DNA of 33,825 nt from Dehalococcoidia bacterium (lineage in GTDB: Bacteria > Chloroflexota > Dehalococcoidia > UBA2247 > RBG-13-53-26), in assembly GCA_016932645.1 (NCBI GenBank), contig JAFGCL010000143.1:1-33825 (forward strand), given 5' to 3'. Of the stretch, positions 7,556-29,200 are shown in pieces (position 1 is the stretch's first letter; each line of letters opens with the position of its first letter). Under the pieces are notes generated by a model that worked only from the letters and a program-made list of their open reading frames with translations, did not search any database and was not told the DNA's origin. The position numbers and the translations under genes are program-made.

Positions 7556-8953
7556 TCATTGGGTTGCGACTGTTGCCTCTCGTTCGATCAAGGCTGCAAC
7601 CAACCTGGCATTCTCAAGGGCACGCTGCTTGATGGCATTCTTTCTCTCCGCCAATTCTGTTTTGGCGGTCTCCTTGTTGCGCCACAAAATGTCGAACTTA
7701 GCCATGACTTCTTCAACCGCGAACTTGCTGCAGACGTAGTCTTCTTGGCCCAGAAGCTGCATAATGCCATGAAACTTGTGATGATACTGTATCCCCAACG
7801 TAGGAACCCCCATCGAAAGCGCAGCAATGTTGGCATGCATCTTGGCTCCGACAAACAAGTCGCATTGCCCGATGACGGCCTTCAATTCAGCAGCCGAGTA
7901 GTCGCCATCCAACATGATTACACTCTCCGGGTGTCTTGTGCTCTGAAGAACTTGAGAACAGATCATCCTATCGTCAAGTACCGGATCGAGGTCATGTGGC
8001 ACCAGCACTACCATGGCGCCAATGCTCTCCACGAGGTGGTCCACCACTTGGGATATCCCTTCAACCCCGACGAAACTCAGCATATCGAGCCCTCTGAAAC
8101 GACCCGCCCGTTTCCGTAGATAGTCGGACCAAGTCTCTGGCATCAACAACCTAGTGGTGCGGAAGACTGATTGGAGGCATCTCAGATACGCCGATCTCTT
8201 GGCCTCGGTCATCAGAATCGTCCAACTGACTGTCATACCGACGAGTGGGTGATGGCCCGCACTAACCCCATGCGCGCGCAGAATTTCTCTGGCCCTTATT
8301 TCTGGAGCAGGATCGAGAGCAAAAGCCGGATCAGCAGTGACGTGTATCCGAGCCGAGTCAACGCCAAGTGTAGTCAGGTGCTTCACTGAGATCTCTTCTC
8401 TGACGTTGGCCAAGGCCAGCCTGCGAAGAGCCTGCCGTACTAGCCATCTCGTTGACCTCGATCTGAATGGACCCGGCGACTGCGCCCACATCACCACTGG
8501 TCTTGAGAGGAAAGCGCCGATCAGGATGTCTTTGGAGTGTTCGACGACCGTGATCATTCCGAAATCATCGCTGAAAGTGTCCATGCTGACATCCACTATG
8601 ACATCTGCACTGGCGTACTCCCTCAACTCCCTATCGCCAATTATGACTTTGGCGAGCAAGGGGATTCGCTTGTGCAGCAAGGCCCAGAACATAGACCGCA
8701 TGACATTGGAGGATGATTTGACCATGGTGAGAATGGAAAAAGACTTTGAAGAGAATGTCTTGTTTCTCACTACCCTCACGCCGCAGTCATCAGCAAAGGA
8801 TTCAGTCATCTGGATGTTTGTTGAGAACACAGCGTCAGGGATGTGCTCGCGGAGCATCATGATAGTAGACAATACGTGGGCAGAACTACCCTTGTTGTAC
8901 ACGCAACTCATGTTGTGAGCCAGCTGGCAGTTGGTGATGAAGATTGCTGCCAT
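7556..8953 (-). CDS. Polysaccharide pyruvyl transferase family protein
   Basis: A 465-residue cytoplasmic protein of the polysaccharide pyruvyl transferase family (CsaB/WcaK-like), which moves pyruvate from PEP to a sugar as a ketal or is otherwise tied to surface-glycan assembly. Recognisable elements are the N-terminal NKGSSAHVLSTI segment (the family's 'N.GD.a' region), VDVSMDTFSDDF, the RPVVMWAQSPGPF segment, LVPHDLDPVLDD and the C-terminal GAKMHANIAALSMGVPTLGIQYHHKFHG region (about residues 363-395). The last contains the conserved R/K-x-H and G-P-x-L-x-I-x-Y pattern. The C-terminus is a charged helix. It lies 147 bp after the GT-C-like gene in the same direction. The upstream ribosome binding site is weak. 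Whether it is a true pyruvyl transferase or one of the many family members with other roles cannot be told. Confidence 0.85.
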   Translation of the reverse strand: MAAIFITNCQLAHNMSCVYNKGSSAHVLSTIMMLREHIPDAVFSTNIQMTESFADDCGVRVVRNKTFSSKSFSILTMVKSSSNVMRSMFWALLHKRIPLLAKVIIGDRELREYASADVIVDVSMDTFSDDFGMITVVEHSKDILIGAFLSRPVVMWAQSPGPFRSRSTRWLVRQALRRLALANVREEISVKHLTTLGVDSARIHVTADPAFALDPAPEIRAREILRAHGVSAGHHPLVGMTVSWTILMTEAKRSAYLRCLQSVFRTTRLLMPETWSDYLRKRAGRFRGLDMLSFVGVEGISQVVDHLVESIGAMVVLVPHDLDPVLDDRMICSQVLQSTRHPESVIMLDGDYSAAELKAVIGQCDLFVGAKMHANIAALSMGVPTLGIQYHHKFHGIMQLLGQEDYVCSKFAVEEVMAKFDILWRNKETAKTELAERKNAIKQRALENARLVAALIEREATVATQ

Positions 8954-9100
8954 GATTTCGAACCTAGTCCATCGCTCTGCTACTCAGGCCAATCCACGAG
9001 AGCACGTCTTCTGCGCAGGAGAACTGGCCACCTGGGAATGAATAGGCATGCACCTTGGAGGGCCTGAACCGGCCATCTCGGATTCGCCCGCTTCCCTCCT

Positions 9101-10756
9101 CTAGTCCCTCTCTTCGCTGACGTAGATTGACGCATCGGGGCTGGCGTATATCAGGTCACAGTTCGTTGCAGAATCCAGTGATGTCTGTACAGTGTCAACC
9201 AGCGTTGGATTGTCCAACATGAATTCGTACATAGCGCGATCGTGCGCGGTCAGGCAGACGTAGACTGGATCATGCCCCATCTCTTCAGTGCGGATCAGTG
9301 TATTATCTTCAAACCCCAAGTCATCCAGTTGGACAGAATAGCGGTATTGCTCGAAGTTCTTCATCCGGCCTATTGGCAGGTCCGCAACCACCCACCCAGC
9401 TGTCGTCTCCTCATGAAAGAAGGTTGCGGAAGAGAGGTAATCTGTAGACAGACGATCGATCTCCTGATTACCGTACCTACATATGAAAACCAGCGGCACA
9501 GCGGCCACCAGGGCGATCACCATGATCGCCCTGGTGGGGGTATAGTGCAGCAACTTCACTGTGAAGTAGGCAATCGCGGGCAATAAGAAGGTGAAGACTC
9601 GCTGATATAGCTCGTGTCGATATCCTGCCCCGACAAGGATGGCTACGGCCAAACAAGCGAAAACGATTGAAAGCACCGTGACGTCTGCATAGCGGTTGTC
9701 TCTCAGTCGCCAACCCAAGAAAGCGCCCAAGGCAGCGAGTGCTAGGAACATCGCCGAGAACGCGAGACGCACCACCGCGACAGCCGCATGGGATGCATTC
9801 CCGGACAGAGGGCTGAGTATGCCGCTTTCGGTCGCCACATCCAGCCTGAACCCCTGCTCCACCAAGGTGGGCAGCCGCCATTCGAAGTAGGCAGCTGCCC
9901 CAAATAGCGACCATGCGACTATGAAGACGGCGGCCAAGATGGCCAGGTTCGGTGACCTCAGCCTTCTTGTGACGGTCATGCCCGCAACCACGGCAGCAGC
10001 AATAAGCGAGCCGAGGAGATGTGCTGGTGCGGAGACCGCAAGCAGCACGACTGCGAAGGTCTTGTGCCCGAAGGACTTGACCTTGTTGTTCCGCGTGGCT
10101 ATGAGTGTAAGGATAGATAGCGCACCGATGACAAAGAAGAACCCAAAGGCTTGAGCTCCGGTGTTCTGAGTCTCGAACCAATTCGCCAGATAGAAGACCC
10201 ACATTGCTGCCCAGGAGTAGTTGGGGTTCACTCTGCCAACAGTGTTGCGGAAGAGGAGGAATAGTGGCAGGATCATCACGGATTGCCAGAGGAACGGGAT
10301 CCACGGTATCAAAGCAGTCAGACCCTCCACGGTAGTGCCAGATGCCTCAATTCCTGAGGCCCAGAAGATCCAGGCTATGGGCCAGTTGTGTTGCCACAAG
10401 TCATTGGGATTGAGATGTCCTTCACGGGTGATGTACTCGACGAATCCCATGTCACCGTAGGCATCATAAGAGAATGGCTGCGCTCCTCTCACGACTACGG
10501 GTGCCAGCCAAATGGCCACGATTAGAAAGCACAGCTGGAGAAGGAGCAACTTCCAGTGGTTCTCCCTGGAAGTCCACAGTACGGCTGAGGCCAACGTGAG
10601 AACGCCCACGGCAATGAAGAAACATGCGGGGAAGCTACTGACGAGCCCAAAGAAACCGACCTTGAATTGGGCCTGAACAATGCTGTAGGACCATAGCACC
10701 AGTGCAAGGACAGTCAGCAATACGGATATGCGCTTCGCTAGCCACTCCGATGCCAT
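9101..10756 (-). CDS. Polytopic membrane glycosyltransferase, GT-C-like
   Basis: About 551 residues with some 12 transmembrane helices in the first ~420 residues (for example LLTVLALVLWSYSI, LLLLQLCFLIVAIWLA, AFGFFFVIGALSIL and AIMVIALVAAVPLVFI) and a soluble C-terminal part of ~130 residues. The first long outside loop carries an acidic motif (SYDAYGDMGF, then HNWPIAWIFWASG), as in GT-C enzymes (PMT/ArnT/DUF2206-like). Those enzymes take sugar from a polyprenyl-phosphate donor at the outer membrane face. The frame is open to 10798, but ATG 10756 has AGGTGG close upstream and is the better start. In this locus it would pair naturally with the DPM1-like GT2 at 13921-14718, which could make the lipid-linked donor. 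An O-antigen-polymerase-like role is the main alternative. Confidence 0.7.
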   Translation of the reverse strand: MASEWLAKRISVLLTVLALVLWSYSIVQAQFKVGFFGLVSSFPACFFIAVGVLTLASAVLWTSRENHWKLLLLQLCFLIVAIWLAPVVVRGAQPFSYDAYGDMGFVEYITREGHLNPNDLWQHNWPIAWIFWASGIEASGTTVEGLTALIPWIPFLWQSVMILPLFLLFRNTVGRVNPNYSWAAMWVFYLANWFETQNTGAQAFGFFFVIGALSILTLIATRNNKVKSFGHKTFAVVLLAVSAPAHLLGSLIAAAVVAGMTVTRRLRSPNLAILAAVFIVAWSLFGAAAYFEWRLPTLVEQGFRLDVATESGILSPLSGNASHAAVAVVRLAFSAMFLALAALGAFLGWRLRDNRYADVTVLSIVFACLAVAILVGAGYRHELYQRVFTFLLPAIAYFTVKLLHYTPTRAIMVIALVAAVPLVFICRYGNQEIDRLSTDYLSSATFFHEETTAGWVVADLPIGRMKNFEQYRYSVQLDDLGFEDNTLIRTEEMGHDPVYVCLTAHDRAMYEFMLDNPTLVDTVQTSLDSATNCDLIYASPDASIYVSEERD

Positions 10757-10825
10757 CTGGCCACCTGATCCTCGACTCATGGTTCTTGCTGCTTGCATAA
10801 GCTAGGGCACGCCTGGACTACTCGG

Positions 10826-10852
10826 GGAGGCTACGACGACCCTTGAGCCTCC
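10826..10852. other. Small hairpin in the gap before the GT-C-like gene
   Basis: GGAGGCT and AGCCTCC can pair across a 13-nt loop in the 185-bp gap between the unknown gene ending at 10942 and the GT-C-like gene. There is no T-tract. It may stabilise mRNA or weakly terminate. Confidence 0.25.
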
Positions 10853-10941
10853 TATTGTGCGTCCCTGACTGTCTAGTTGAGCAACGGACTCCAGACAGAC
10901 CCAAGCCGAGTTCACAGCTTGCGCTTCACCTGATGTCGCCA

Positions 10942-11853
10942 TCATGTCTGCAGTCCTTCATGAAATATTGCGAAGGTTTCGATGGCATGTCTCTCTTTTG
11001 ACACTCCTACTGCCACGCCTGTCAGCGACGGCAGCTGTGCCAGATATGCCGAGGCTTCGACAGGCTTGACATATCCGGCTGCCAGTACGCTGAAAGCGAT
11101 TACTTCCGTCTGTGGGATTGCCCGCAGGGCCTCTTCGCAGGTCTCTCTTGAAGGGCACATCTGGAAGCCTGCCGGGTTGAACGGGGCGGCGATTGCTACT
11201 TGACCGAAGTCAATCCCCCAGTGTTGAAACTTATCCACTAGATAGGGGAAGTTGCGAGTCTCGAATCCCGGCGTGATACGGCGTTCTGACATAAACTGCA
11301 GATGTGCATCAATGAGCCATCGCATGTTGAGGGCCAGAGCCATGTCCGTCACAACTTCATGCAGCATTATCGAGCCCAACTCAGATCTCTTGCCACCGGC
11401 AGACTTCAACCGGTACGTCTCATACCATAAATAACTCCTCAAGAGGCTGACTGGATCATTGCCTACCACCCCTTTCACTCCGTTGGCCACTGCTCTCAAA
11501 TTGCCGGATAAAAGAACCTGCTTCCCCAGTCTTCTGGCTAGACCAGGGACTCCTCCAGCAAGGACCGCCATGCGAACGAATTCGTAGGCGTATGGCACTA
11601 TAGCGTAGAGGCGCGGTTGGCGCTGTCGCTCTTCTCTCAGTATCCTAAGAATGGAGAGGGTGGTTTCGCTGACGGTAAACATGAAGCCGTCGGCGCCATT
11701 GTCGAGGGAGAGGCCAACAAGATGGGCCGCGTATCTGGGATTGTTCAGTTCATTCCCTCTCGATGCTGCCCTCGCCTGTGAGAGGTGGCTTATGCCATGA
11801 AAGGGATTGTCCCCGACCAGCAGCCTCTTATTTGTTGCCTCACTCTTGCTCAT
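10942..11853 (-). CDS. Uncharacterised protein, TIM-barrel-like, partner of oxidoreductase
   Basis: A 303-residue soluble protein I cannot assign to a named family. It begins with a striking phrase (RLLVGDNPFHGISHLSQ). It has alternating hydrophobic strands and helices in the order of a TIM barrel: GADGFMFTVSE, LYAIVPYAYEFVRMA, LGSIMLHEVVTDMAL, WLIDAHLQFM, FGQVAIAAPFNPAGF, VIAFSVLAAGYV and LTGVAVGVSKERHAIETF. The last segment resembles the end of aldo/keto reductases. No Asp-Tyr-Lys-His catalytic set of that family is evident, so that link is weak. Its start lies inside the upstream Gfo/Idh gene (14-nt overlap, AAGGCGAG as ribosome binding site), which implies translational coupling. It may therefore act on the same sugar or nucleotide-sugar. 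An aldolase-type enzyme or an isomerase would also fit. Confidence 0.75.
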   Translation of the reverse strand: MSKSEATNKRLLVGDNPFHGISHLSQARAASRGNELNNPRYAAHLVGLSLDNGADGFMFTVSETTLSILRILREERQRQPRLYAIVPYAYEFVRMAVLAGGVPGLARRLGKQVLLSGNLRAVANGVKGVVGNDPVSLLRSYLWYETYRLKSAGGKRSELGSIMLHEVVTDMALALNMRWLIDAHLQFMSERRITPGFETRNFPYLVDKFQHWGIDFGQVAIAAPFNPAGFQMCPSRETCEEALRAIPQTEVIAFSVLAAGYVKPVEASAYLAQLPSLTGVAVGVSKERHAIETFAIFHEGLQT

Positions 11854-12829
11854 TGCTCGCCTTCTTCACATGAGCGATAACCCGTTCGACTTCGGAGGCC
11901 GTCTGAAAGCTCGGCTCAGCGCAGGTGCCAGCCGATACAGAACGAAGGAATAGCTCATCCTCGCGTACATAGTCCGTTCCCCCGATGAAGAAGGGGACAT
12001 CATCGCCAAGATCATGCTTGTGCCATAGATACGAGTTGCCATTATCAAGATTCAACTGGACTTTGTCCTCATCCACCTTCATGTTGCCCTTGGATCCAGT
12101 CACTTTCAGTCCGATCTCAGGCATCCGGTAGTCTCCCTTGCACCAGGAGATCTCCACAACCCCGTTTACCCCTTCGTTGGACTTCAGACGGAAGGAGGCG
12201 GCATCTTCGGAGTTGCCCCCAAGAAGTGACTCCAGTTTGGTGCTCTGAACCTCCAGCCCTCCAAAGAACCAGAGCGCGAGGTCCACTACGTGGCATCCCA
12301 AGTCACTGATGACTCCTCCTCTAGAAGAGGCCGTCGACGCGGCCTTGGCTCCGAAGAAGTCGGAAGAGTAGGCGTATCCCTCAAAGGAAGTCAATGTGCC
12401 AATAGTACCCTCGTCCAGGATGTGCCTTCCCTTCCCGAAGGTAACCGAGAACCTCCTGTTGTAGCCTACCATGTTAACGCCGCCGTGGCTCTGTGCCAGA
12501 TTGCACAGCTCTTGTGCCTCGGAGTAGCTAGAGGCCAACGGCTTCTCAACAAACAAATGCTGGGCAATGCTGTCGGCATAGATCGCCTTCACTATGGGGA
12601 AGTGAGATGATGCGGGCGTGGTCACGTACACTGCATCAAGTCTCAAGCTGCGGAGATCTCCTAAGTCACGCACTATCTCGATGCCCGGAATAATTCTCTT
12701 GCCGAACCGGCGAACCATGGAACTTATCTCGCAGAACGCTACAAGCTCCACGCTCCGCATGGTAGCCAAGATGCTGGCATGAAGAAGTGCCATCTTGCCC
12801 AGTCCGATGACAGCAACGCGTTTCTTCAT
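11840..12829 (-). CDS. Gfo/Idh/MocA family oxidoreductase
   Basis: A 329-residue NAD(P)-dependent dehydrogenase. The Rossmann nucleotide-binding motif is at the N-terminus (VAVIGLGKMALLHA, residues 5-18). The family's EKP motif is at 95-97 (FVEKPLASS). The C-terminal beta-sheet domain includes NMVGYNRRF (119-127) and the SDLGCHVVDLALWFFGG helix, whose His/Asp pair is the usual catalytic and substrate site. In glycan loci such enzymes oxidise or reduce UDP-/dTDP-sugars at the 3- or 4-position. The substrate cannot be read from sequence. It is 70 bp behind the GT2 gene at 12900 and overlaps the next gene by 14 nt. The ribosome binding site is weak. Confidence 0.9.
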   Translation of the reverse strand: MKKRVAVIGLGKMALLHASILATMRSVELVAFCEISSMVRRFGKRIIPGIEIVRDLGDLRSLRLDAVYVTTPASSHFPIVKAIYADSIAQHLFVEKPLASSYSEAQELCNLAQSHGGVNMVGYNRRFSVTFGKGRHILDEGTIGTLTSFEGYAYSSDFFGAKAASTASSRGGVISDLGCHVVDLALWFFGGLEVQSTKLESLLGGNSEDAASFRLKSNEGVNGVVEISWCKGDYRMPEIGLKVTGSKGNMKVDEDKVQLNLDNGNSYLWHKHDLGDDVPFFIGGTDYVREDELFLRSVSAGTCAEPSFQTASEVERVIAHVKKASNEQE

Positions 12830-12899
12830 GACGTTTTCTGTAGTGAATGCTCAATTGTACAGAGGTCAGGCCAGTTTTGTTCCATCTGAGTTGCACGAC

Positions 12900-13853
12900 T
12901 CATTGACCATATATCCAACGGCCAAAGGCATAGCCTGTCGCCATGAGCGAGAGGTTCATGACGATGGCTGCTGCTTGAGGCAGACTGGTCGGACGATAGA
13001 AGTAGATCAGCCTCTGTACCATCGATCCGAAGACGAGTTTGCGAAGAAAGACACCCTCAGCCGCAAGCGGTTCGGTATTGTATTGTGACACCACTCCCTT
13101 CATCAGAGCCCTAGTGTGCCCTTCACGAAGGCAGAAGTCAAGCATATATCTCAGTCTTGCCCTGTTGTGTACAACCTTGTGATGCACGACGGCTTCAGGT
13201 CTGAAGATGATTCTGCCTTCAGGAATGCGGCTCTTGATTCGGAGGCACATTTCCGCTTCCTCTCCCCCAGAGGGATTGAACCTCTTTCTCTTGAGCTCGC
13301 ATCGCCCCAACCTCGTTTCCCAAAGCCCCGCCTTCTCAAAGACTTCCCGCCGAAAGGCCATGTTACTTCCGGTCACGTTTCGAATGGCACCATCAGGTCG
13401 CATCATGAGACCCTTGTGCTCCGTGCAGCCAACAACAAAGTCAAACTCCATTGGAAACCACAGCGGAGGAGATCCATCGGGCCAAGCGGCGACTGCCTGA
13501 CCACCCACCGCTACAACTCTGGGATCATCGAAGGCTGGAGCGAGGTTCTCCAGCCAACTCTCCTCAGCTACTGCGTCGTCATCGAGAAAGGCAACTATTT
13601 CGCCGGTTGACGATTGGATACCGGTATTCCGTGTGTTCGACAGTCCGGGCGTGCCCGTGTTGAGAACCACGCATATCTCGGATGGGAGCTCAATCCTGAG
13701 CCTGTGAAACAGATCCTCGTTGCGGTCAATGGCTAGTATCAGTTGGTGTGGCTTAAGCGTCTGGGCAAGGACGGAGTCCACTGCTTCATGGATGTCCTTC
13801 AGGCGCTCTTCAGTGTAGGCGCAAATGATGACCGACACACTGGGGTATTTCAT
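12900..13853 (-). CDS. Family 2 glycosyltransferase
   Basis: A 317-residue GT-A fold transferase. It opens with SVSVIICAYTEERL, has the metal-binding acidic triad AFLDDDA (Asp91-93), the acceptor-side segment NVTGSNMAFRREVFEKAG, and the late catalytic GGEEAEMCLRI motif corresponding to the family's 'ED.dl..R'. The C-terminal ~45 residues contain one or two hydrophobic stretches (AAAIVMNLSLMATGYAFG) that may tether it to the inner membrane face. It should transfer a nucleotide-activated sugar to a lipid-linked glycan. It sits between another GT2 (67 bp upstream) and the Gfo/Idh gene. Confidence 0.9.
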   Translation of the reverse strand: MKYPSVSVIICAYTEERLKDIHEAVDSVLAQTLKPHQLILAIDRNEDLFHRLRIELPSEICVVLNTGTPGLSNTRNTGIQSSTGEIVAFLDDDAVAEESWLENLAPAFDDPRVVAVGGQAVAAWPDGSPPLWFPMEFDFVVGCTEHKGLMMRPDGAIRNVTGSNMAFRREVFEKAGLWETRLGRCELKRKRFNPSGGEEAEMCLRIKSRIPEGRIIFRPEAVVHHKVVHNRARLRYMLDFCLREGHTRALMKGVVSQYNTEPLAAEGVFLRKLVFGSMVQRLIYFYRPTSLPQAAAIVMNLSLMATGYAFGRWIYGQ

Positions 13854-13920: not shown

Positions 13921-14718
13921 TCAGCGTGCCATTTTCCCCGCCGGTCCGGGATGCCAGGTGGCGAGTTTGAGCATGATTCGCAAGTGCTGCCATCCTACCT
14001 GCAGGCCAGAGAGCTTGCTCTTGCCTATCCGCTCTTCGTAGTGAATGGGGATTTCACGCACTCCAAGGTTCATACGGCTCACCTTGATGGCAATCTCCGG
14101 TTCTATGGCAAAGCCTCGGGAGCAGATATTCATCCTCTGCAGTTGGTGCTTCCTTATCCCATAGAGACCTGTCGAATAGTCAGAGGCATGGAAACCATAC
14201 CCATACTTCATGATGGCCTGGAACGCGGCATTGCCCAGCCGATTCATGAGCGGAATGTTGTGCCGGCCTGTGCTTCGAGCGCAGTATACGGCTTCGCAAC
14301 ATTCAAGTATCTGGACCATTTGAGGGATGGCTTCCGGGGGGTAGGTACCGTCGGCATCGATGAAGATGACGTTCTTTCCGCGCGCATGTCTTGCCCCGGT
14401 CAGCATCGCTTCTCCTTTGCCGCGGTTCTGGCTGTGGCGTACTACTCCACAGCGGAATCGACTGGCGACCTGAGGCGTGGCGTCAGATGACCCATCGTCC
14501 ACCACAAGTACTTCGCACTGGCCATCAACACATGCGAAGAGTCGCTGTAGCACTACGGGCAGACCTTTCTCCTCGTTGTACGCCGGAATCACCACGGTAG
14601 CGACGAAGCCTGACTTTGTGTCAGGCCTTTTTACCACGACTTCCGAGGGTGTCAACTCACTGAGTGTTGCGCTTGCCGCTCCAGCTGACAGACTATCGAC
14701 ATCTGCACGTGTGTTCAT
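13921..14718 (-). CDS. DPM1/DPG-like polyprenyl-phosphate glycosyltransferase
   Basis: A 265-residue GT2 enzyme of the dolichol-phosphate-mannose-synthase type. Motifs in order: VVIPAYNEEKGLPVVL (43-58), VDDGSSDAT (73-81), the GKGEAMLTGARHA segment, IDADGTYPPEAI (DxD at 121-123), FHASDYSTGLYGIRK and EIPIHYEERIGKSKLSG. There is no C-terminal pair of transmembrane helices, so it is the short soluble or peripheral form. An unusual ~38-residue Ser/Thr-rich extension precedes the catalytic domain. ATG 14718 has GGGAGG upstream. It probably transfers a hexose from a nucleotide sugar to polyprenyl phosphate, giving the donor for the GT-C-like protein at 9101. A good promoter lies 830 bp upstream, with the repeated leader element between. 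Confidence 0.88.
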   Translation of the reverse strand: MNTRADVDSLSAGAASATLSELTPSEVVVKRPDTKSGFVATVVIPAYNEEKGLPVVLQRLFACVDGQCEVLVVDDGSSDATPQVASRFRCGVVRHSQNRGKGEAMLTGARHARGKNVIFIDADGTYPPEAIPQMVQILECCEAVYCARSTGRHNIPLMNRLGNAAFQAIMKYGYGFHASDYSTGLYGIRKHQLQRMNICSRGFAIEPEIAIKVSRMNLGVREIPIHYEERIGKSKLSGLQVGWQHLRIMLKLATWHPGPAGKMAR

Positions 14719-15010: not shown

Positions 15011-15150
15011 CCAGAAAACAACGAAACCGACCTCGAGGTCGGTTTCACTATTGGCTCCCTACCACCCAAGTGACCATTTACAGATGGCAGTTCAACACCC
15101 CCAGTGTCTGCTAGTTGGCCTTCAAGCTACGCTTCTCTCCCCGCCAGACC
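15011..15150 (-). repeat. Structured leader element, copy 2 (inverse of 25150-25296)
   Basis: Read on the minus strand this contains a GGGGxxAGAAG-like block, TAGCAGACACT (15113-15103), GTTGAAC (15096-15090), TGGTCACTT, CAATAGTGAAACCGACCT and TCGTTGTT..CTGG. All occur in the same order in the copy at 25.2 kb. The segment flanking TGGTCACTT can pair as CTGCCA/TGGTAG (one G-U). The corresponding arms in the other copy are CCCCTGCC/GGCAGGGG: different bases, but still paired. It lies ~300 bp before the DPM1-like gene and ends in a terminator. It could be an attenuator, a small RNA or a conserved 3' element. Confidence 0.6.
15023..15046 (-). terminator. Palindromic terminator in leader element copy 2
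   Basis: A perfect 24-bp palindrome (GAAACCGACCTC / GAGGTCGGTTTC) is followed on the minus strand by GTTGTTTTCTGG. The T-richness on that side and the identity with the + strand terminator at 25259 fix the orientation. Confidence 0.6.
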
Positions 15151-15759: not shown

Positions 15760-16842
15760 TCATATTCGGATGCTCCTATCCCAGATTCTGCGTCGGTTCC
15801 TCCAAAGGTACTTCCTGTCATGGCAGACGCTACGGACCAGAACAGGTGTCTTTTCCATAATGGTCCTCGCGAGTGAGTATCTCTTCTCGTAGATGCGCAC
15901 AGGCACTCTGGTTCCCTTGAATCTCTCCTTAAAGAATGCCAGGCTCTCTGTATCTGTGTATCCAAGATCAGCATATCTGTAGCCGGTGTTGCAGGCATCC
16001 TCAATTGCTGTCTTCCAGCATAGTTTGTTGGCATTGTCAGTGTCCTTCTCGTAGCTCCCTACTCTGGCCAGATAGCATGTCGTGGGAGTGTAGTGGCACA
16101 ACAGCGTGACGATGGGCTTGTCGTCAAGCAAGGCGACGAATAGCTTCGTTCGATCCCGGAATACATCCAGTCGCACCATGATCTCATCTCTGTTGGGAGG
16201 TCTTGCCCCGCGCCGCTTCTCGTTTTCCGATAGCATGACTACGAAATCCTCGGCATACTTGAGCTCTTGATCCCAGAGAACCACCACTCCGCTTTTTGCC
16301 GCTTTCTTGATGGCCCTCCTGAAGTTGTCTGACCATCCTTTCCAGATGTTCTCTTGGAAGGGCAGTTTCAATGTGAGAACGTAGTCACAGGGTAGTCCAG
16401 TCTTGCTGTCGTATCTGCAGTGGAATCCACTATCGACCAGGGCCGCAGCAGGTCCTTCAGCCAGCGTGCCAGCCTTCGGGGGAGCACATGCCAGCCTGAA
16501 GGAAGAACACCTGCGAGAGTAGTGGGAATCAACATACTCCAAGAGTGCTGTGGTTGCGCCATGTCTTTCGTTGTCCGTTAGATCGCTCCTTAGTAGAAGG
16601 CCTTGTGCTCCGCCTCCGCTGCCGGAGTCGAGAGTTGAGTATAGTAGCCCGCTCTGTCTGACTATGGAAAGCACACCAACGAGCTGGGAGGAAGCAGTAT
16701 CGATCAAGAGCGGGATGAATTCGTTTCCTGCGGCCTCGTGGACATACTTCCAGCCGAAATACAGACAGAAACCTCCGCTTTCGCTATCCACGAAGGCGTC
16801 CCAAGCCGCCTTGTCAGCCGGAGTAGCTTCTCGTACTCTCAT
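15760..16842 (-). CDS. FemAB / GNAT-like transferase
   Basis: About 360 residues. The frame is open to a TTG at 16977, but the promoter at 16952-16981 implies transcription from ~16945, so ATG 16842 (MRVREATPADKAAWDAFV) is the sensible start. Two GNAT-type halves are visible, as in the FemAB/Acetyltransf_6 group. The first has FCLYFGWKYVHEAAGNEFIP, IPLLIDTASSQLVGVLSIV and GGGAQGLLLR. The second has the signature WKGWSDNFRRAIKKAAKSGV, FVALLDDKPIVTLLCHY and YADLGYTDTESLAFFKERF. Proteins of this group add amino acids from aminoacyl-tRNA to peptidoglycan, or act in exopolysaccharide biosynthesis loci, for example on sugar amines. Here the neighbours are glycan enzymes, so the second role is more likely. 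It heads the minus-strand run but is separated from the next gene by 1 kb. Confidence 0.82.
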   Translation of the reverse strand: MRVREATPADKAAWDAFVDSESGGFCLYFGWKYVHEAAGNEFIPLLIDTASSQLVGVLSIVRQSGLLYSTLDSGSGGGAQGLLLRSDLTDNERHGATTALLEYVDSHYSRRCSSFRLACAPPKAGTLAEGPAAALVDSGFHCRYDSKTGLPCDYVLTLKLPFQENIWKGWSDNFRRAIKKAAKSGVVVLWDQELKYAEDFVVMLSENEKRRGARPPNRDEIMVRLDVFRDRTKLFVALLDDKPIVTLLCHYTPTTCYLARVGSYEKDTDNANKLCWKTAIEDACNTGYRYADLGYTDTESLAFFKERFKGTRVPVRIYEKRYSLARTIMEKTPVLVRSVCHDRKYLWRNRRRIWDRSIRI

Positions 16843-16951
16843 ACGGTTTCTTTCAGCCCGGATTTCCTGCCCCGAAGACAGTGCGAGATTGCTGATGTCT
16901 TGGCGTGAGCGACTGGTGGCCCCAGCCGCAGCCGGCTCTCGGCCAGACCTG

Positions 16952-16981
16952 ATTGTATTCCTTTCTCGAGCCGGCAATCAA
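16952..16981 (-). promoter_or_regulatory. Promoter of the FemAB-like gene
   Basis: TTGATT (16981-16976), 18-bp spacer, TACAAT (16957-16952) on the minus strand, about 110 bp before ATG 16842. It is back to back with the + strand promoter at 17040. Confidence 0.5.
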
Positions 16982-18271: not shown

Positions 18272-19942
18272 CTACGCTGCTGTGGCTACGATTGCGATGA
18301 GGTCTGCATTGTGACCTGTGCTCATCCCCAACTTTCCAACATGCTTGCCCCTTGAAGGGCGCTTGCTTGCTGCTTCTACCACCGCAAAACCCCCTGCCTT
18401 GGTACCGGTGCCATAGGGAGTGGTCACCGAGACATCCCTCAGCTCCAGAGCTGCGCTGGTGTCAATGGTGATGTTGATGGTTATCTGGTCCAGGCCATTG
18501 AGTTGCATACTATTGAATGTGAGGCTGTTCACCGTTATCCCTGGTCCGAAGTCTACGTTTGCCGCTCCGTCAAGGTACTGCCCGCTGATGACGACGGTGA
18601 GGGTCTGCCCCTGAGCTCCTTGACTGGGTAGAACGCTCCTGATAATGGGATGCTCGACAGGACTAATGGAGTAGTTCTCAAATGGCTGCATCAGCGGATA
18701 GTTGTCTTGCTGAGAGCCGCCCATGGAATAGGGGGTATCGCCAATGCCGTCGCCGTCCACGTCGTTTCCATAGTAGTTGCCCCAGTAGTTTCCCATGTAG
18801 CCCACACGAGTGCTTCCGTCATATTCATAGGTCAGCTGCCGAGGGAAGTTCAAGAGGTTTTCCTCGGTGGAGCACCCGTATGTGAACCTGAAGTTGTTGA
18901 GGTAGATTGTGTTGTTGACTGAGAGCCATGATTCCATGGCGTAGGCAGAGTCAAGGACGTCGTTCTCTGTTATAACATTACTTTCTGCAAGAGCCAGGTA
19001 GATCCCAAAGTAACTACCCAGAGTGTTCTTGGTCAACAGGTTGCATGTCGATTCATGCAGGTTGATGGCATACGTAGACCAGTTGATGATGTTGTTCTTC
19101 ACCGTACTGTTGACCGTGTTCCAGAGCTCTATGCCAACCGTGGTGCTGTCCAGCGTCAGGCCATCGACGGTGATGCGGTCGCAGTCTACGAGTATGACCT
19201 GGCCCACATCGGGTCCGGTGACTGTAGCGCCGGATACACCTTCGAGGTAGACCAGGGGTTTGCCATTGACCGTGTTATCCTCCACCGTATTGTGTCGAGC
19301 TGAGACATAGAGACCGCTATGTGTGAAGACATTGCCGGCTATGACGTTCTCGCTAGACTCGGAGCCCAAGTCGAGACCATAGTAGCCGGTGTCAGAGAAT
19401 GTGTTGCCCGACACTGTATTGCCATCTGAGCCAGCGATTCTAATGCCATAGTACCAATTGGCGGAAAGGTAGTTGCCAATCAGCGTGTTCGAATCCGAGT
19501 TCTCCAATTGAATTCCCGCGCAGTTGCTGATGAGGCTGTTGCCGGATATCGTGCAGTGGCTCACGTTCATGAGGCTGATTCCAGCGAACAACCATCCAGT
19601 GGCGTCTCTCACCGTGAGTCCACTTATGTTGACGCCGTCGGCTGTCACGCAGAAGACATCATCATCGCGATTCGCCGCTTGGACAGTTGTTGCTGCAGCA
19701 CCGTGCTCCGATTGTATCGTCACCGCCTTGGCTACATTCACATTATCCGTGAACAGACCGTCCCCCAGGATAATAGTGTCTCCAGGGCTTGCAGAGTCCA
19801 CAGCATCCTGGATACTCTCACCCGGATTCACATACCATGTCGTCGCTGCCCTCACCGGGCGCGCCGACGGCGGAACAAGCACGTAGACCAACGATAGACA
19901 TAGGGCCAAGGCAACGAGCATGGAAACAAGTCTGGCTGTCAT
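18272..19942 (-). CDS. Exported NosD-type beta-helix protein with TIG domain
   Basis: A 556-residue protein. The frame is open to 20026, but ATG 19942 has GGGGGG 5 nt upstream and opens a signal peptide (LVSMLVALALCLSLVYVL). Residues ~35-400 are a right-handed parallel beta-helix of the NosD/PbH1 type. It has the start motif SIQDAVDSASPGDTIILGDG, many NxxxGNxxSxN rungs (CTISGNSLISN, NTVSGNTFSD) and the classic NosD signature NYWGNYYGNDVDGDGIGD / DNYPLM near the end. An IPT/TIG domain follows at ~430-523 (SVLPSQGAQGQTLTVVISG to GTGTKAGGFAVV), then a ~33-residue tail without an anchor. Such proteins are secreted or surface-bound and may bind or cleave polysaccharide. No lyase residues can be assigned. 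Confidence 0.88.
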   Translation of the reverse strand: MTARLVSMLVALALCLSLVYVLVPPSARPVRAATTWYVNPGESIQDAVDSASPGDTIILGDGLFTDNVNVAKAVTIQSEHGAAATTVQAANRDDDVFCVTADGVNISGLTVRDATGWLFAGISLMNVSHCTISGNSLISNCAGIQLENSDSNTLIGNYLSANWYYGIRIAGSDGNTVSGNTFSDTGYYGLDLGSESSENVIAGNVFTHSGLYVSARHNTVEDNTVNGKPLVYLEGVSGATVTGPDVGQVILVDCDRITVDGLTLDSTTVGIELWNTVNSTVKNNIINWSTYAINLHESTCNLLTKNTLGSYFGIYLALAESNVITENDVLDSAYAMESWLSVNNTIYLNNFRFTYGCSTEENLLNFPRQLTYEYDGSTRVGYMGNYWGNYYGNDVDGDGIGDTPYSMGGSQQDNYPLMQPFENYSISPVEHPIIRSVLPSQGAQGQTLTVVISGQYLDGAANVDFGPGITVNSLTFNSMQLNGLDQITINITIDTSAALELRDVSVTTPYGTGTKAGGFAVVEAASKRPSRGKHVGKLGMSTGHNADLIAIVATAA

Positions 19943-20016
19943 TATCCCCCCTTTGCGTGCGCATGCATTCCTCGCCTGACTTGCCGATTGGCATGCAGGC
20001 TGCGATATCACATCGG

Positions 20017-20046
20017 ACAATAGCACGAGGAAACCTCGGCTGTCAA
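20017..20046 (-). promoter_or_regulatory. Promoter of the NosD/TIG gene
   Basis: TTGACA (20046-20041), 18-bp spacer, TATTGT (20022-20017) on the minus strand, 75 bp before ATG 19942. The same GATG-TTGACA-GC...N...TATTGTCC arrangement occurs at 30712-30741 before the PPC-repeat gene. Confidence 0.6.
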
Positions 20047-20164: not shown

Positions 20165-23100
20165 CTATTCGGCCACAGCTCTCCTCAGTGCCAAATCTGC
20201 ATGTGCACCAAAGCCGATGCTGCCCTGATCGGTCTGGTCACCCGGTGGTTTGAGTACGCTCGTTGAGCCTGCCACAGTGAAGCCAAGAGCCTTGACGCCG
20301 GTACCTGCAGGAGTGGTGACCAAGACGTCTCTAACGCCAGGAGTGGCATCGCTGTCGATGGTGATGTTGACCGTTATCTGATCCAGACCATTGAACTGCA
20401 ACTCGTTCAGGCTGAAGCTGTTCACCGTTATCCCCGCGCCGAAGTCAACGCTGGTCACTCTGCCAAAGTACAGGCCGCTGATGACAACGGTGAGGGCCTG
20501 CACCTGGGCTCCCTGACTCGGCGAAAGCGCCACGACGACGGGCTGTTCGTTTGACAAAGTGAAGGACCATGGACTGGTCCATGGGCTCTCGCCGATGGCG
20601 TCATCTTCCGCTCTGACCCTCCAGTAGTAGATGCCATCAGCCAAGGCCTCAGTCAGAGTGTATTCCGAGATGCTCAATCCTGCCTCGTCGCGCACCGGAG
20701 AGGAGAACTCAGCGTTGTCATCGACCTGAACGTGGTAGGTCATGGCGGAGAGGGTTGACTCCTGGGCCATCTGGAGTTGCTGGATGACCACTGCTATATC
20801 AGAGACATCGCTCCAATCCAGCGTAGGAGTACCGTGGTTGAGGATAGCCCCATTGGCTGGGGACAGCAGGGCGGGAGGTATGATCATGGCAGGCGTGGTG
20901 AACCTCAGGTCATCCCCGTAGGCCGTGCCGTCGCCCACTGCCTTGGCCCTAAAATGGTAGGTCACACCTGGAGAAAGGGCACTGAGCTCAATCGTGAAGG
21001 CACCAACGTCAGTCATTGTCTGCGGCGTTGTCTCATTGCCGTAGCTCGGCGTAGGTCCCCACTCGAAGGACACCTCCACTGATGATGCCGAACCTAGTGA
21101 CACCAGATATCCTTCAAGGATGGCTGAGGCCGATGTGACATCACTGGCTATCAAGGTCGTGACGGATGGGTTAGCACTGGGCGCCCAGCCACTAGGATCC
21201 TGAAAGGGATAGCGATCCGCGACGGGGTAGTTCCCGTCCCAACCTTCAATGTGGTACGGCTGTGATCCATTACTGGGGTTGCCGGTGCAGGTGTGATCGT
21301 TCCAGTAGTTGCCCCCATCCACCGACCCGTTGTCCCAGCAGTTGGTTGTGGGCGTGATGCCGTCGGGAGGACTCCAGTCAGCAGCCTGACTCGAATCGCC
21401 TACATTGTCTATGAGGTTGTTGTGGTAGATCAGGTTGTAACCAGAGTAGTCAGTGAGATAGATGCCGAAGTCGGTGCCGTCCAAGATGCTATTGCCCCTA
21501 ATGATGTTCCTAAATGAGTAAAAGAGCCACATGCCATCGTCTCCGCTCGAAAGCACCCTGTTGTCCTCGATCAAGTTGTCGCCGTTGTACCCCCACATTT
21601 CCATGCCATTACCATTGTTGCTGGCCACCGTGTTGCCAGTGATCTGATTGTGGTTGGCATCCCAGTGGAGAAGAAAGCCATCGTTTTCGTTGAACGAGAC
21701 GTTGTTGTTCACAAACCTGTTGTTCTCCGAATAGAACAGGTAGACTCCGTCTTCGTTGTTGGAGCAAATGACATTCCCGCTGAAGGTATTGCCACATGAC
21801 TCGTAGAGGTAGACGCCATCACCGTTGCTTATGTTGGAGTTGGCCACAGTGATATTCGAGCAATATGCTAGCGTCAGGTGCGTCGTATCAAGGCCACCTA
21901 GCACCAGATCGGACTGACTGTAGTAGTAGTACACCGGCTTGCCGTTGACGGTGTTGGTGCTGTCAATCACATTGTTGAAGACATCCTGCTGTTTCCACCC
22001 AGGGTCCACGTGGATTCCATAGCCACCGCTATTGACTATGGTGTTGCCGGTTATCTGGTTCTGGCCATCATATAGGATGATTCCGCTGCAGACGTCAACA
22101 ATGGTATTACCAGTAATGACGTTGCCACTGCCCTCCATGTCTATGCCGGTTTCGAAGCCAGAAATGCTGTTGCCAGCTACAGTGTGACTGCCATCCTCTT
22201 CTTGTAGAGAATCTATCACAATGCCAGCGGAGGGACCACCACCCAGTATGATGTTGCCAGCTACCGTGCAGTTGTCATACCACTCTCCTGCAAAATGGCA
22301 GTCCTCTATGTGTATTCCGCACCCAGATGAGTTAGTCACCGCGAATCCCGAGACGGTCACATTCCCTTCACCCAGGTCAAAGTACCCTACGACGCTGGTA
22401 ACAGCAGGACCGTGCTCTGAGACTATGGTGAGACCAGGATAATCTATGTCAACGCATTCTGCATAGACTCCGTCCCTGACGATAATGGTATCCCCCTCAT
22501 CGTACTCGCCAGCACCGATTACAGCGGCCTGGATGGTGGGAAATTGGTCAGGCACGTAGATCGTTCGCGGTGCCGGAGGTAGGCCGATTGCAGCGCCATG
22601 ATAGACATAGGCCCGACCCTCATCGAACTCCTCGTTGTCGTATCCGTAGGCGCCGGCTATGGTGTCATCATAGCCGTCACCGTTCACATCCCCCGCCGAG
22701 GCTACTGAACAGCCGAACCAGGCTCCCTCTTGGTCGCTGTCTGCTGTCCAGTCGACAGTGGCGCTGAGCCCCATGGAGGAGCCATGGAAAACGTACGCTC
22801 GCCCCTCCTCTTCATGCCCGTTGTCACAATACTGCTCGCCGACAATGACATCCGCATATCCGTCCCCGTTGACGTCGCCGGCGCTGGCTACACTGCCGCC
22901 AAACTCGGCAGACCACTCTTCGCTGTCAGCGTGCCAATCGTAGCTGGCGCTCAACCCCGCGGCAGACCCATGGTAGACGTAAGCCAGATCTTCTCCCGGA
23001 GCGCCAATGATGACGTCGTCATAGCCATCACCGTTGACATCACCAATCCCACCCACGGAACTTCCCAATTCGTACCAGAAGGCCTCGCTGGCGGTCCAGT

Positions 23101-23992
23101 TGGGGCTGGTGCTCAAGCCGGTGGCGGAACCGTGGTAAGCATAAGCCACAGAGCCTCCCGGAGCGCCAATGATCACGTCGTCGTAGCTGTCACCGTTGAC
23201 ATCACCAGCTTCACCCACGGAACTGCCGAAGTCGTCGCAGAAGCCCTCAGTGGCGGTCCAGTTGGGGCTGGTGCTCAAGCCGGTGGCGGAACCGTGGTAG
23301 ACGTAAGCCACATCGTCTTCCGGAGCGCCAATGATGACGTCGTCATACCCATCACCGTTCACGTCTCCGGCGTTGGCTGCCGAATAGCCGAAGTAGGCGC
23401 CGGCTTGGTTGCTCTCCGCTGTCCAGTTGGGGGCAGTACTCAGACCACTTGCTGAACCATGGTAGACATACGCTCGACCTTCATCGGTCTCCCCATTGTC
23501 ATAGCAGTAGGCCCCCACTATAATGTCGTCGTAGCCATCACCATTGACGTCTCCCGCGGTGGCTGCCGAATAGCCGAAGTAGGCGCCGGCTTGGTTGCTC
23601 TCCGCTGTCCAGTCGGGGGCAGTACTCAGACCACTCGCTGAACCATGGTAGACATACGCTCGACCTTCATCTGCCTCTTCATTGTCATAACAGTACGCCC
23701 CCACGATGATGTCGTCGTACCCATCGCCATTGACGTCTCCGGCGTTGGCTACTGAGTAGCCGAAGTAGGCGCTGGCTTGGTTGCTCTCCGCTGTCCAGTT
23801 GTATTGGGTGGGCGCAGGAGTCCAATCCAACCCAGCAGGCACAGGCTGGTCGAGGGTCACTGCCCGAAGTGTCGTGTCGTCAGCAGCCAGATTCAGTGGG
23901 TGCACGTCTTGGGGAGACTCATACGCAGTGGCCAGAGCCAGGACTGCTATCAAGCATGCAAGTGTGGCAATGAACTGTCTCCTGATACTCAT
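20165..23992 (-). CDS. FG-GAP / beta-helix / FN3-like / TIG surface protein
   Basis: A 1275-residue exported protein: signal peptide at 1-23 (FIATLACLIAVLALATA), GGGGAGGT ribosome binding site. Residues ~76-475 carry seven FG-GAP repeats (FGYSVANAGDVNGDGYDDII...GRAYVYHGS), each with a DxNxDGxxD calcium-binding loop, as in integrin-alpha-like propellers. About 478-925 is a PbH1 beta-helix (IYVPDQFPTIQAAVI, then rungs such as NTFSGNVICSNN). Residues ~938-1032 are an FN3-like domain absent from the paralogue at 30909. About 1036-1145 is another beta-sandwich (PANGAILNHGTPTLDWSDVSD reads across it). About 1149-1240 is IPT/TIG, then a short tail. There is no membrane anchor. A large cell-surface adhesin or glycan-binding protein is likely. 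The repeats produce long antisense open frames that are not genes. Confidence 0.9.
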   Translation of the reverse strand: MSIRRQFIATLACLIAVLALATAYESPQDVHPLNLAADDTTLRAVTLDQPVPAGLDWTPAPTQYNWTAESNQASAYFGYSVANAGDVNGDGYDDIIVGAYCYDNEEADEGRAYVYHGSASGLSTAPDWTAESNQAGAYFGYSAATAGDVNGDGYDDIIVGAYCYDNGETDEGRAYVYHGSASGLSTAPNWTAESNQAGAYFGYSAANAGDVNGDGYDDVIIGAPEDDVAYVYHGSATGLSTSPNWTATEGFCDDFGSSVGEAGDVNGDSYDDVIIGAPGGSVAYAYHGSATGLSTSPNWTASEAFWYELGSSVGGIGDVNGDGYDDVIIGAPGEDLAYVYHGSAAGLSASYDWHADSEEWSAEFGGSVASAGDVNGDGYADVIVGEQYCDNGHEEEGRAYVFHGSSMGLSATVDWTADSDQEGAWFGCSVASAGDVNGDGYDDTIAGAYGYDNEEFDEGRAYVYHGAAIGLPPAPRTIYVPDQFPTIQAAVIGAGEYDEGDTIIVRDGVYAECVDIDYPGLTIVSEHGPAVTSVVGYFDLGEGNVTVSGFAVTNSSGCGIHIEDCHFAGEWYDNCTVAGNIILGGGPSAGIVIDSLQEEDGSHTVAGNSISGFETGIDMEGSGNVITGNTIVDVCSGIILYDGQNQITGNTIVNSGGYGIHVDPGWKQQDVFNNVIDSTNTVNGKPVYYYYSQSDLVLGGLDTTHLTLAYCSNITVANSNISNGDGVYLYESCGNTFSGNVICSNNEDGVYLFYSENNRFVNNNVSFNENDGFLLHWDANHNQITGNTVASNNGNGMEMWGYNGDNLIEDNRVLSSGDDGMWLFYSFRNIIRGNSILDGTDFGIYLTDYSGYNLIYHNNLIDNVGDSSQAADWSPPDGITPTTNCWDNGSVDGGNYWNDHTCTGNPSNGSQPYHIEGWDGNYPVADRYPFQDPSGWAPSANPSVTTLIASDVTSASAILEGYLVSLGSASSVEVSFEWGPTPSYGNETTPQTMTDVGAFTIELSALSPGVTYHFRAKAVGDGTAYGDDLRFTTPAMIIPPALLSPANGAILNHGTPTLDWSDVSDIAVVIQQLQMAQESTLSAMTYHVQVDDNAEFSSPVRDEAGLSISEYTLTEALADGIYYWRVRAEDDAIGESPWTSPWSFTLSNEQPVVVALSPSQGAQVQALTVVISGLYFGRVTSVDFGAGITVNSFSLNELQFNGLDQITVNITIDSDATPGVRDVLVTTPAGTGVKALGFTVAGSTSVLKPPGDQTDQGSIGFGAHADLALRRAVAE

Positions 23993-25024: not shown

Positions 25025-25149
25025 GCATCTGGAGTCCCCTGCAAAGCCTCCAATACCTCTCCATCCCGCCTCGGCCGCAATTGGCCGCAACCCGTCGCCA
25101 GCTTGGCGATGAAGGTCTGCGAAGGAATCGGCATCACAGTGACGACAAA

Positions 25150-25296
25150 TGTCTATGAGGGGCGCAGAAGAGACTAAGTAGCAGACACTCACGCACAAGC
25201 AGGAGACGTTGAACCCCTGCCTCTATGTGGTCACTTTGGCAGGGGTGAGTCAATAGTGAAACCGACCTCGGAAGGTCGGTTTTTTCGTTGTTCTGG
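25150..25296 (+). repeat. Structured leader element, copy 1 (inverse of 15011-15150)
   Basis: Contains GGGGCGCAGAAG, TAGCAGACACT (25179-25189), GTTGAAC, an 8-bp stem CCCCTGCC/GGCAGGGG (25214-25221 with 25238-25245) around TGGTCACTT, then CAATAGTGAAACCGACCT and the terminator. It lies between the YdjM-like gene and a small gene starting at 25446. No known riboswitch or T-box consensus fits. Confidence 0.6.
25259..25285 (+). terminator. Intrinsic terminator in leader element copy 1
   Basis: A 10-bp stem AAACCGACCT / AGGTCGGTTT with a 4-nt loop followed directly by a run of six Ts (25280-25285). It lies 235 bp after the YdjM-like stop codon and 160 bp before ATG 25446. Confidence 0.8.
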
Positions 25297-25445: not shown

Positions 25446-25928
25446 ATGCTAGCGCACAACTATGACTTCCCGCAGTCCCTAAGCCAGACCGAAGCCGCTG
25501 TTTCAGCAGACTCTCAGCCAAGTGTCGGCAACATCCGATCGACACACATCTCGGGAATGGTATCCTCCATCCGATTCATGGTGATGGTGCGTGTGCAAGC
25601 TTGTCTGCGGTGGTTCGAAGATCTTTGTGACGAGCCTGCTGAGGAGACGCAGTCTCTTGATGAGGTCACACTCACAGAGTCTGCGGATGATTATCTCAGT
25701 CATGCCGCCGGGGTCGACCAGCGAATCTGGTATCCCGGGCATTCGACAGAGGAATCATTGCCTGCAGCGGTTGCCAGGCCAGTTGTTCGTATTGTACAGG
25801 AACGGAAACCAGATATTGCCAGGACATTCTGGCCAAGATCCAACTTCGACTGGTTCATTCTGATGACGGCTGTGCTGGCCTTTACAGTGGTACCTTTGGT
25901 CTGGGCCATAGCGGCACTAGTCTTCTAG
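25446..25928 (+). CDS. Small tail-anchored protein, unknown function
   Basis: A 160-residue protein with a strong ribosome binding site (GGGAGGAGAGG before ATG 25446). I do not recognise the family. The first ~130 residues are soluble, with a basic/hydrophobic helix (VSSIRFMVMVRVQACLRWF) and an acidic stretch (CDEPAEETQSLDEV). The last ~28 residues are one transmembrane helix ending exactly at the C-terminus (FDWFILMTAVLAFTVVPLVW), with no signal peptide. It should therefore be tail-anchored with its N-terminal part in the cytoplasm. No good promoter is seen between the upstream terminator and the start, so expression may depend on read-through of that terminator. The surrounding genes give no functional clue. 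Confidence 0.7.
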   Translation: MLAHNYDFPQSLSQTEAAVSADSQPSVGNIRSTHISGMVSSIRFMVMVRVQACLRWFEDLCDEPAEETQSLDEVTLTESADDYLSHAAGVDQRIWYPGHSTEESLPAAVARPVVRIVQERKPDIARTFWPRSNFDWFILMTAVLAFTVVPLVWAIAALVF

Positions 25929-26210: not shown

Positions 26211-29200
26211 TCACTCCACCACGGTGAAGCCCCCTGTCTTCGTTCCGGTGCCGCTAGGGGTGGTCACCGAGACGTCCCTCAGACCCAGATCGGCGCCGGC
26301 ATCAATGGTGATGCTGACAGTTATCTGGTCCAGACCATTGAGATGCAGCTCGTTCAAGCTGAAGCTGTTCACCGTTATTCCTGTGCCGAAGTCTACGTCG
26401 GTCACTTCGCCAAAATACAAGCCGCTGACTACAACGGTGAGGGTCTGCCCGCGAGCGCCTTGGTCAGGAAAGACATGCAATATGATGGACTTCGGCCCCA
26501 GCACCGTGAAACCGCCCACAAGGGTGCCTGTGCCATTGGGAGTGCTCACTGAGACATTCCTGGCACCTAGCGTGGACAGACTGCTGATGGAGATCTGGGC
26601 CGTTATCTGGGTGGCGCTGTCCACTGTGAAGCTGTTCACCGCGACGCCTGGTCCAAAGTCCACATTGGAGGCGTCGGTGAAGTAGTTGCCCGCAATGATG
26701 GTGGTGAGGATCTCTCCTTGGCCCCCGTGGTCGGGGCTCACTGAGGTTACCACCGTTGGCGTGGTACCGGGGTTGAGCGAAAGCCTGTAGCTGCCCGTGT
26801 AGTATCCGTAGTGGTCGCCAGCCAGAACGGTGTACTGGCCGGCTGTCGGCAACGATTGGCTGATCTCGGCCAGGCTGCTGCCGTAGACCGTCTGAAGCAG
26901 AGTACCGTCGGGACTGTACAGTCTGATCTCGGGGTAGAAGCTAGTAGAAGCAGGTTCGGCCATCCTCACCAGGACGGCATCACCGGCATTGCCAGTGAAG
27001 GTGTAGCTATCCATCTCCGCGTACTGAGTGATTGAGGACGAGATGGTCTGGCCAAAACCGATAGCTGCAGCATTTCCGGGATTGTTGGTCCTCTGGACAA
27101 ACAGGCCATAGTCGCCGGCGTAGTATCCGTTGTGGTCGCCAGCCAGAATGGTGTACTGGCCGGCTGCCGGCAGCGATTGGCTGATCTCGGCCAGGTGGCT
27201 GCCGTAGACGGTCTGAAGCAGAGTGCCGTCGGGCCAGTACAGCCTGATCTCAGGGTAGAGGCTGGTGGCATGCTCGCCCATCCTCACCAGGACATCATCA
27301 CCGGCACCGGCCGTGAAGGTAAAACTGTTCATCTCCCCATACAGAGTGATGGAGGTGGGGATGGTCTGGCCAAAACCGACAGCGGTGGCATTTCCGGGAT
27401 TGTTGGTCCTCTGAACAAGCAGGCCATAGTTGCCGGTGTAGTATCCGTTGTGGTCTCCAGCTAGAACAGTATACTGGCCGGCTGTCGGCAGCGATTGGCT
27501 GATCTCGGCTAGACTGCTGTTGTACACCGTCTGAAGCAGAGTGCCGTCGGGGCCGTACAGTCTGATCTCAGGGTAGAGGCTGCTGACAGGTTCGCCTATC
27601 CTGACCAAGATGGCGTCACCGGCATTGGCCGTGAAGGTGTAGCTGTCCATCTCCGCATACAGGGTGATGGAGCCAGAAATGGTCTGGCCAAAACCGACAG
27701 CAGCGGCGTTCCCCGGATTGTTGGTCCTCTGAACAAACAGGCCGTAGTCCCCGGTATAATATCCGTTGTGGTCTCCAGCCAGAACGGTATACTGGCCGGT
27801 CGCCGGCAATGATTGACTGATCTGGGCCAGGCTGCTGCCATAGACGGTCTGAAGCAGAGCGCCGTCGGGTCCGTACAGTCTGATCTCGGGGGAGGCGCTG
27901 GTATAGTCGGCTATCCTCACCAGAACGGCGTCGCCGGCATTGGCGGCGAAGGTGTAGCTGTCCATCTCCGCATACAGGGCGGTGGAGGCTGCAATCGTCT
28001 GGCCAAAACCGATAGCAGCGGTGTTTCCCGGATCGTTGGTCCTCTGGACAAACAGGCCATAGTTGCCGCTATAGTACCCGTAGTGATCGCCAGCCAGGAT
28101 GGTGTACTGGCCGGTTGTCGGCAAGGATTGACTGATCTCGACCAAAGTACCGGCGTAGACGGTCTGAAGCAGAGCGCCGTCGGGACCGTACAGTCTGATC
28201 TCGGGGTAGAGGCTGCCGGTAGGTTCGGCTATCCTCACCAGGAGGGCATCACCGGCATTGGCGGTGATGGTGTAGCTGTCCATCTCCGCATACAGAGTGA
28301 GGGATGTAGAGATGGTCTGGCCAAAACCGATGGCAGTGGCATTTCCCGGATTGTTGGTCCTCTGGACAAACAATCCATAGTTGCCGGTGTAGTACCCGTT
28401 GTGGTCGCCAGCCAGGATGGTGTACTGGCCCGTTGTCGGCAACGATTCACTGATCTCGGCCAGGCTGCTGTCGTAGACAGTCCGAAGCAGAGCGCCGTCA
28501 GGCCCGTACAGTCTGATATCGGGGTAGACGCTGGTGTAGTCGGCTATTCTGACCAGGACATCATCGCCTGCACTGGCCGTGAAGGTGTAGCTGTCCATCT
28601 CCCCATACAGGGTGAGCGAGCCCGAAATCGTCTGACCAAGAGTGAAAGGAGTGGTATTTCCCGGATTGTTGGTCCTCTGGACAAACAGGCCATAGTTGCC
28701 GGTGTGGTATCCGTTGTAGTCGCCAGCCAGAACGGTGTAGAGGCCGGTTGTCGGCAACGATTGACTGATCTCGGCCAGGCTGCTGCTGTACACGGTCTGA
28801 AGCAGAGTGCCATCAGGGCCGTACAATCTGATCTCGGGGTAGATGCTGCCGGCAGGTTCGCCAATCCTCACCAGGACGTCATCGCCGGCATTGGCGGTGA
28901 AGGTGTAGCTGTCCATCTCCCCATAGAGGGCAATGGAAGTGGTAACAGTCTGGCCGAAAGTGAAAGGAGTGGCATTTCCCGGATTGTTGGTCCTCTGGAC
29001 AAACAGGCCATAGTTGCCGGTGTAGTAGCCGTTGTCATCGCCAGCCAGAAGGGTGTACTGACCGGCTGTTACCAACGATTGACTGATCTCGGCCAGGCTG
29101 CTGTTATAAACGTTCTGAAGGAGAGTGCCGTCGGGACCATACAGTCTGATCTCGGGGTAGAGGCTGGTGGAGTCTGCCATCCTTACTAGGACAGCGTCAC

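Follow-up and report, generated by a model that had tools for sequence, protein, structure and literature searches.

The window analyzed here, a 33,825-nt stretch of DNA, is a single contig belonging to a Dehalococcoidia (Chloroflexota) MAG that spans 2.43 Mb at 72.8% completeness. Two copies of a short RNA element lie in it in inverted orientation, each in the leader of a codirectional gene: copy A at 15110-15028 (-) and copy B at 25195-25276 (+), the Rfam bounds being taken as the element proper. The first gene after copy A encodes a GT2 glycosyltransferase (13921-14718, -; Pfam PF00535, E 3.6e-29), whose ATG is 318 nt from the aptamer core. The codirectional run continues at 7556-13853 (-) with a second GT2 enzyme, a GFO/IDH/MocA oxidoreductase, two unknown proteins and a polysaccharide pyruvyl transferase; judged by these annotations, copy A has cell-surface polysaccharide genes as its targets. 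Copy B precedes a gene at 25446-25928 (+), with GGAGGAG upstream, for a 160-aa protein with a hydrophobic C-terminal tail and without a known family. Large proteins are encoded around both elements (18272-20026, 20165-23992, 26211-30497 and 30909-33701, all -); most carry FG-GAP or beta-helix (NosD-like) repeats and one has PPC domains, architectures typical of big surface proteins. Several proteins of the window resemble archaeal glycosylation enzymes.

RNA class and fold

Searched against Rfam, both copies matched the c-di-GMP-II riboswitch, RF01786, over the full model and above its gathering score of 53.5 bits (copy A, 57.5 bits, E 2.2e-10; copy B, 65.3 bits, E 1.3e-12), copy A by a margin of only 4 bits. 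RF01786 outscored all other members of its clan at both sites. At E values up to 0.1, the window held no Rfam family besides RF01786 and overlapping members of the same clan, and the class-I c-di-GMP-I (GEMM) model had no match. A DNA search revealed more copies of the element elsewhere in the genome; together with the scores above the gathering threshold, these show that the likeness of copies A and B is not due to chance. The original prediction, made from the letters alone, had described two copies on these strands with a series of shared blocks and had proposed a structured cis-regulatory leader of the riboswitch or attenuator type. The blocks are present in both copies, and the proposed type agrees with the RF01786 matches and with the position in leaders of codirectional genes. 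What did not survive the Rfam scan is the suggestion of a possibly undescribed RNA: by sequence and structure model, this is the described class-II c-di-GMP riboswitch, and the RNA itself is not new. The GEMM consensus probably gave no match because class II is structurally unrelated to class I, with which it shares the ligand class and the role of a leader RNA controlling surface and motility genes.

Each element has the class-II architecture. In copy A, the variable stem pairs 15090-15083 with 15066-15059, the pseudoknot pairs 15075-15069 with 15049-15045 and 15042-15041, and the bulged AA is at 15044-15043 (all -). The equivalents in copy B are 25214-25221 with 25238-25245, 25229-25235 with 25255-25259 and 25262-25263, and 25260-25261 (all +). 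Pairing was counted for stems and pseudoknots. The arms that differ between the copies had been noted to stay complementary, and they do pair (CTGCCATC/GGGTGGTAG in copy A, CCCCTGCC/GGCAGGGG in copy B). The motif AACCG with its AA bulge, part of the RF01786 consensus, is retained in nearly all copies, including A and B; the AA bulge and the following G are presumably ligand-contact nucleotides. The closing stem P1 is reduced to about two pairs in the family of the window's genome.

Homologues from this family (37 aligned copies) bear out the selected stem that had been proposed, as their stems covary. All eight pairs of the variable stem and two of the three lower-stem pairs (10/11 together) have changed on both sides while keeping the pairing. 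Stem cells were paired in 96.5% of cases, versus 30–46% for slid partners, and none of 500 shuffles reached any of five measures. Pseudoknot pairs were formed in 99.6% of cells, a near-invariance that is largely due to the search pattern having fixed them. Compensatory pseudoknot variants (TCACT/AGTGA, TCACC/GGTGA and TCGCT/AGCGA) occur in copies found independently by the covariance model, and the pseudoknot thus covaries across the class.

Predicted switching mechanism

Both copies run into an intrinsic terminator. In copy A (15015-15044, -) it reads AACCGACC-TCGA-GGTCGGTT followed by a T-rich tract (hairpin 15044-15025, -11.7 kcal/mol); in copy B (25260-25289, +) it reads AACCGACCT-CGGA-AGGTCGGTT, likewise with a T-rich tract (hairpin 25260-25281, -13.0 kcal/mol). 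Neither U tract is continuous (TTCGTTGTTTT in copy A, TTTTTTCGTTGTT in copy B). A terminator before the gene had been predicted for each copy and is there, yet it is not merely downstream of the element: in both copies its 5' arm (AACCGACC) is also the 3' strand of the aptamer, comprising pseudoknot and closing strand. This overlap recurs in 85 of 100 copies, in which the arm finds at least six contiguous pairs downstream, then a T-rich stretch; the same arrangement arose in 19 of 5000 trials with shuffled downstream sequence. The terminator analysis revealed no separate antiterminator.

Because the terminator borrows the aptamer's own 3' strand, aptamer and terminator are mutually exclusive, and ligand binding should therefore prevent termination, which predicts an ON switch. 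Without ligand, AACCGACC at the 3' end of the aptamer would pair with GGTCGGTT and form the intrinsic terminator. With c-di-GMP bound, the strand would be kept in the pseudoknot and closing stem, no terminator would form, and the polymerase would read on. High c-di-GMP would thus raise expression of the surface-glycan operon behind copy A and of the small membrane protein behind copy B, the two copies presumably belonging to some ten such switches across the genome. In Clostridioides difficile, all four class-II switches are ON, and the genes downstream of them code for pili and adhesins (PMC6366702; PMC11477304).

Occurrence and neighbouring genes

The window's genome contains 10 RF01786 matches, eight of them above the cut-off. 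Across 60 genomes, including this one, 13 had matches and 11 had matches above the cut-off. These concentrate in g1 and g2, the genus of the window and a sister genus, with 7–12 matches per genome, versus zero or one in each of four other genera of the family. Two GGDEF domains are encoded in the window's genome, which indicates that c-di-GMP can be made. The archaeal SSU model, which also responds to bacterial SSU, had no match in the MAG, so the MAG lacks an SSU. Some riboswitches are paired on one strand at distances of 170–400 nt (L024 722-805 with L036 891-974 on the same contig; G055:C106 12354 and 12754; L083 6173 and 6434) and are possibly tandem switches. One c-di-GMP-II-like element (L102, JABXGV010000195.1) comes from a MAG labelled as an archaeon, whose contig could be mis-binned.

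Among copies with a called next gene, that gene is codirectional in 66 of 84, as it is for copies A and B; because genes were called mechanically, individual cases may be erroneous. Elsewhere in the window's genome, riboswitches precede genes for a GT2 enzyme, signal peptidase II, and HEAT-repeat, SnoaL-like and DUF3485 proteins, the last presumably EpsI-like. Several targets in this genome are related to the surface or envelope. Over all copies the downstream genes belong to diverse families, led by DUF5658 (6/65), and a regulon dominated by a single gene family was not found. The DUF3485 gene behind one riboswitch (L133) and a weak FemAB XrtA/PEP-CTERM-associated match adjoining copy A (15760-16977, -) hint at an exosortase-like surface system.

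A shared upstream motif and a candidate sigma factor

A bipartite motif resembling a promoter, GAGGGAT-N13/14-GCGACTAA, precedes most c-di-GMP-II riboswitches in g1 and g2, typically at a distance of about 45 nt from the aptamer. Scored with a weight matrix built without the window's own copies, the site ahead of copy B (GAAGGAA at 25121-25127, a 14-nt spacer and ACGACAAAT at 25142-25150, +) ranks first of 67,570 window positions and may act as a promoter. The same matrix gave no convincing motif for copy A, whose best-scoring site has rank 17 in the window. Exact CGACTAA occurs within 120 nt of 32 of 95 copies of all origins, versus 0.5% in shuffled sequence, and GACTAA accompanies 31 of 41 family copies (about one expected). 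A loose bipartite pattern yields about ten sites in the window's genome, five of them just upstream of riboswitches. Its backward-read control gave 14 hits, so the loose pattern alone is unspecific; it is the association with riboswitches that is specific, and in five sister genomes 17 of 26 motif sites precede one. The shared block TAGCAGACACT might represent an additional conserved leader element: 7 of 41 leaders contain AGACAC where one would be expected, a modest excess. At L139 (G000:C95:2496-2522, -), the promoter-like motif is followed by sequence resembling a decayed c-di-GMP-II riboswitch (ACGAAACTGACC) that the family search missed.

The motif also occurs at the stop codon of an ECF sigma gene (G000:C135:6762-7374; L142 914-1526), whose product has Sigma70_r2 and r4_2 domains. 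There it precedes a membrane protein with Fn3/PKD-like domains; orthologous sites exist in G001 and G002, and a related form, GAGTGAT-N14-ACGACTAT, stands at the equivalent place in G003 and G009. Sigma orthologues (53–100% identity) are present in all six riboswitch-rich genomes, whereas the family's four riboswitch-poor genera lack close ones (about 32% identity at best). The rich genera may form one group, which would make this one phyletic contrast rather than several independent ones. The position of the motif and the phyletic co-occurrence are circumstantial evidence that this sigma factor may recognize the motif; the Fn3/PKD-like membrane protein is its putative anti-sigma factor. A bipartite motif common to many leaders, and found beside genes for an ECF sigma factor and a membrane protein, recalls autoregulated ECF systems; in contrast, the -35-like box GAGGGAT differs from the usual ECF box, which contains AAC. 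Joint control of the riboswitch leaders by ECF sigma and c-di-GMP is plausible on this genomic pattern. In its full form, the hypothesis assigns initiation of these leader transcripts in g1 and g2 to a dedicated ECF sigma factor, and the decision on their completion to the c-di-GMP-II riboswitch that each one carries. The outcome would be a two-input regulon that comprises around ten transcription units in every genome, with several surface-related units among them. This is tentative, and we would put it slightly below even odds. To our knowledge, based on a small literature search, no described regulon couples a single alternative sigma factor to a single riboswitch class in a systematic way.

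Discussion

We conclude, with a probability of roughly 0.88, that both elements are class-II c-di-GMP riboswitches acting by transcription attenuation in a predicted ON direction. The analysis establishes family membership, strand overlap and covariation; ligand binding and direction are inferred. Weighing against the conclusion are the broken U tracts, the short P1 and, for copy A, the narrow score margin and the distance to its first ATG. They resemble RF01786 riboswitches in sequence, stems, pseudoknot, the AA bulge followed by CCG, leader position and a terminator as expression platform. Differences lie in the hosts (uncultured Dehalococcoidia versus Clostridia or Deinococcus), in the number of about ten copies per genome, in the very short P1, replaced here by the terminator overlap, and in the promoter-like motif common to leaders of g1 and g2. 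Class-II switches of C. difficile, such as Cdi-2-4 before pilA1, likewise join a class-II aptamer to a transcription terminator, control surface structures and share the ON direction predicted here. Their targets include type IV pili, whereas polysaccharide enzymes and unknown membrane proteins take that place here, and no group I intron was seen.

Several scattered copies, two of them inverted, might suggest a dispersed repeat, and a match to an IS or MITE end had been named from the outset as an outcome that would count against the prediction. The similarity tracks the Rfam structure with compensatory changes, however, and the flanks are unrelated beyond the promoter-like motif. A transposable-element origin was rejected on account of the unrelated flanks and compensatory stems, and we give the repeat reading practically no weight. 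It is also highly improbable that the class-II fold binds another ligand here, on the pattern of the variant families c-di-GMP-II-GAG and c-di-GMP-II-GCG listed in the literature (PMC12452182). Same-clan families do overlap both sites with lower-scoring matches, but the parent model outscores each of them and both copies keep its AACCG.

Ligand binding that promotes termination, the OFF direction common among class-I switches of C. difficile (PMC6366702), is very unlikely: bound aptamer and terminator exclude each other through their common strand, no separate antiterminator was seen, and four of four class-II switches in C. difficile are ON (PMC6366702). Copy A might be decaying or silent, leaving copy B alone active, given its lack of a convincing family promoter, its low margin above the cut-off, the distance to its first ATG and the seemingly degenerate relative L139 in the same genome. 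Its stems, pseudoknot, bulge and terminator are nevertheless all intact, and other copies have long leaders too, which makes loss of function in copy A an unlikely, if realistic, outcome.

Read as ON-type class-II riboswitches, the two elements owe their value to their setting in a little-studied lineage and not to the RNA class. Their aptamers and terminators are short, and the mechanism can be tested in vitro without culturing the organism. The part most worth following is the possible two-input ECF sigma/riboswitch regulon, which provides a concrete hypothesis. C. difficile strain 630 has 16 c-di-GMP riboswitches (PMC6366702). Our results indicate that riboswitches, in comparable numbers, serve uncultured Dehalococcoidia in the c-di-GMP control of surface-polysaccharide and envelope genes.
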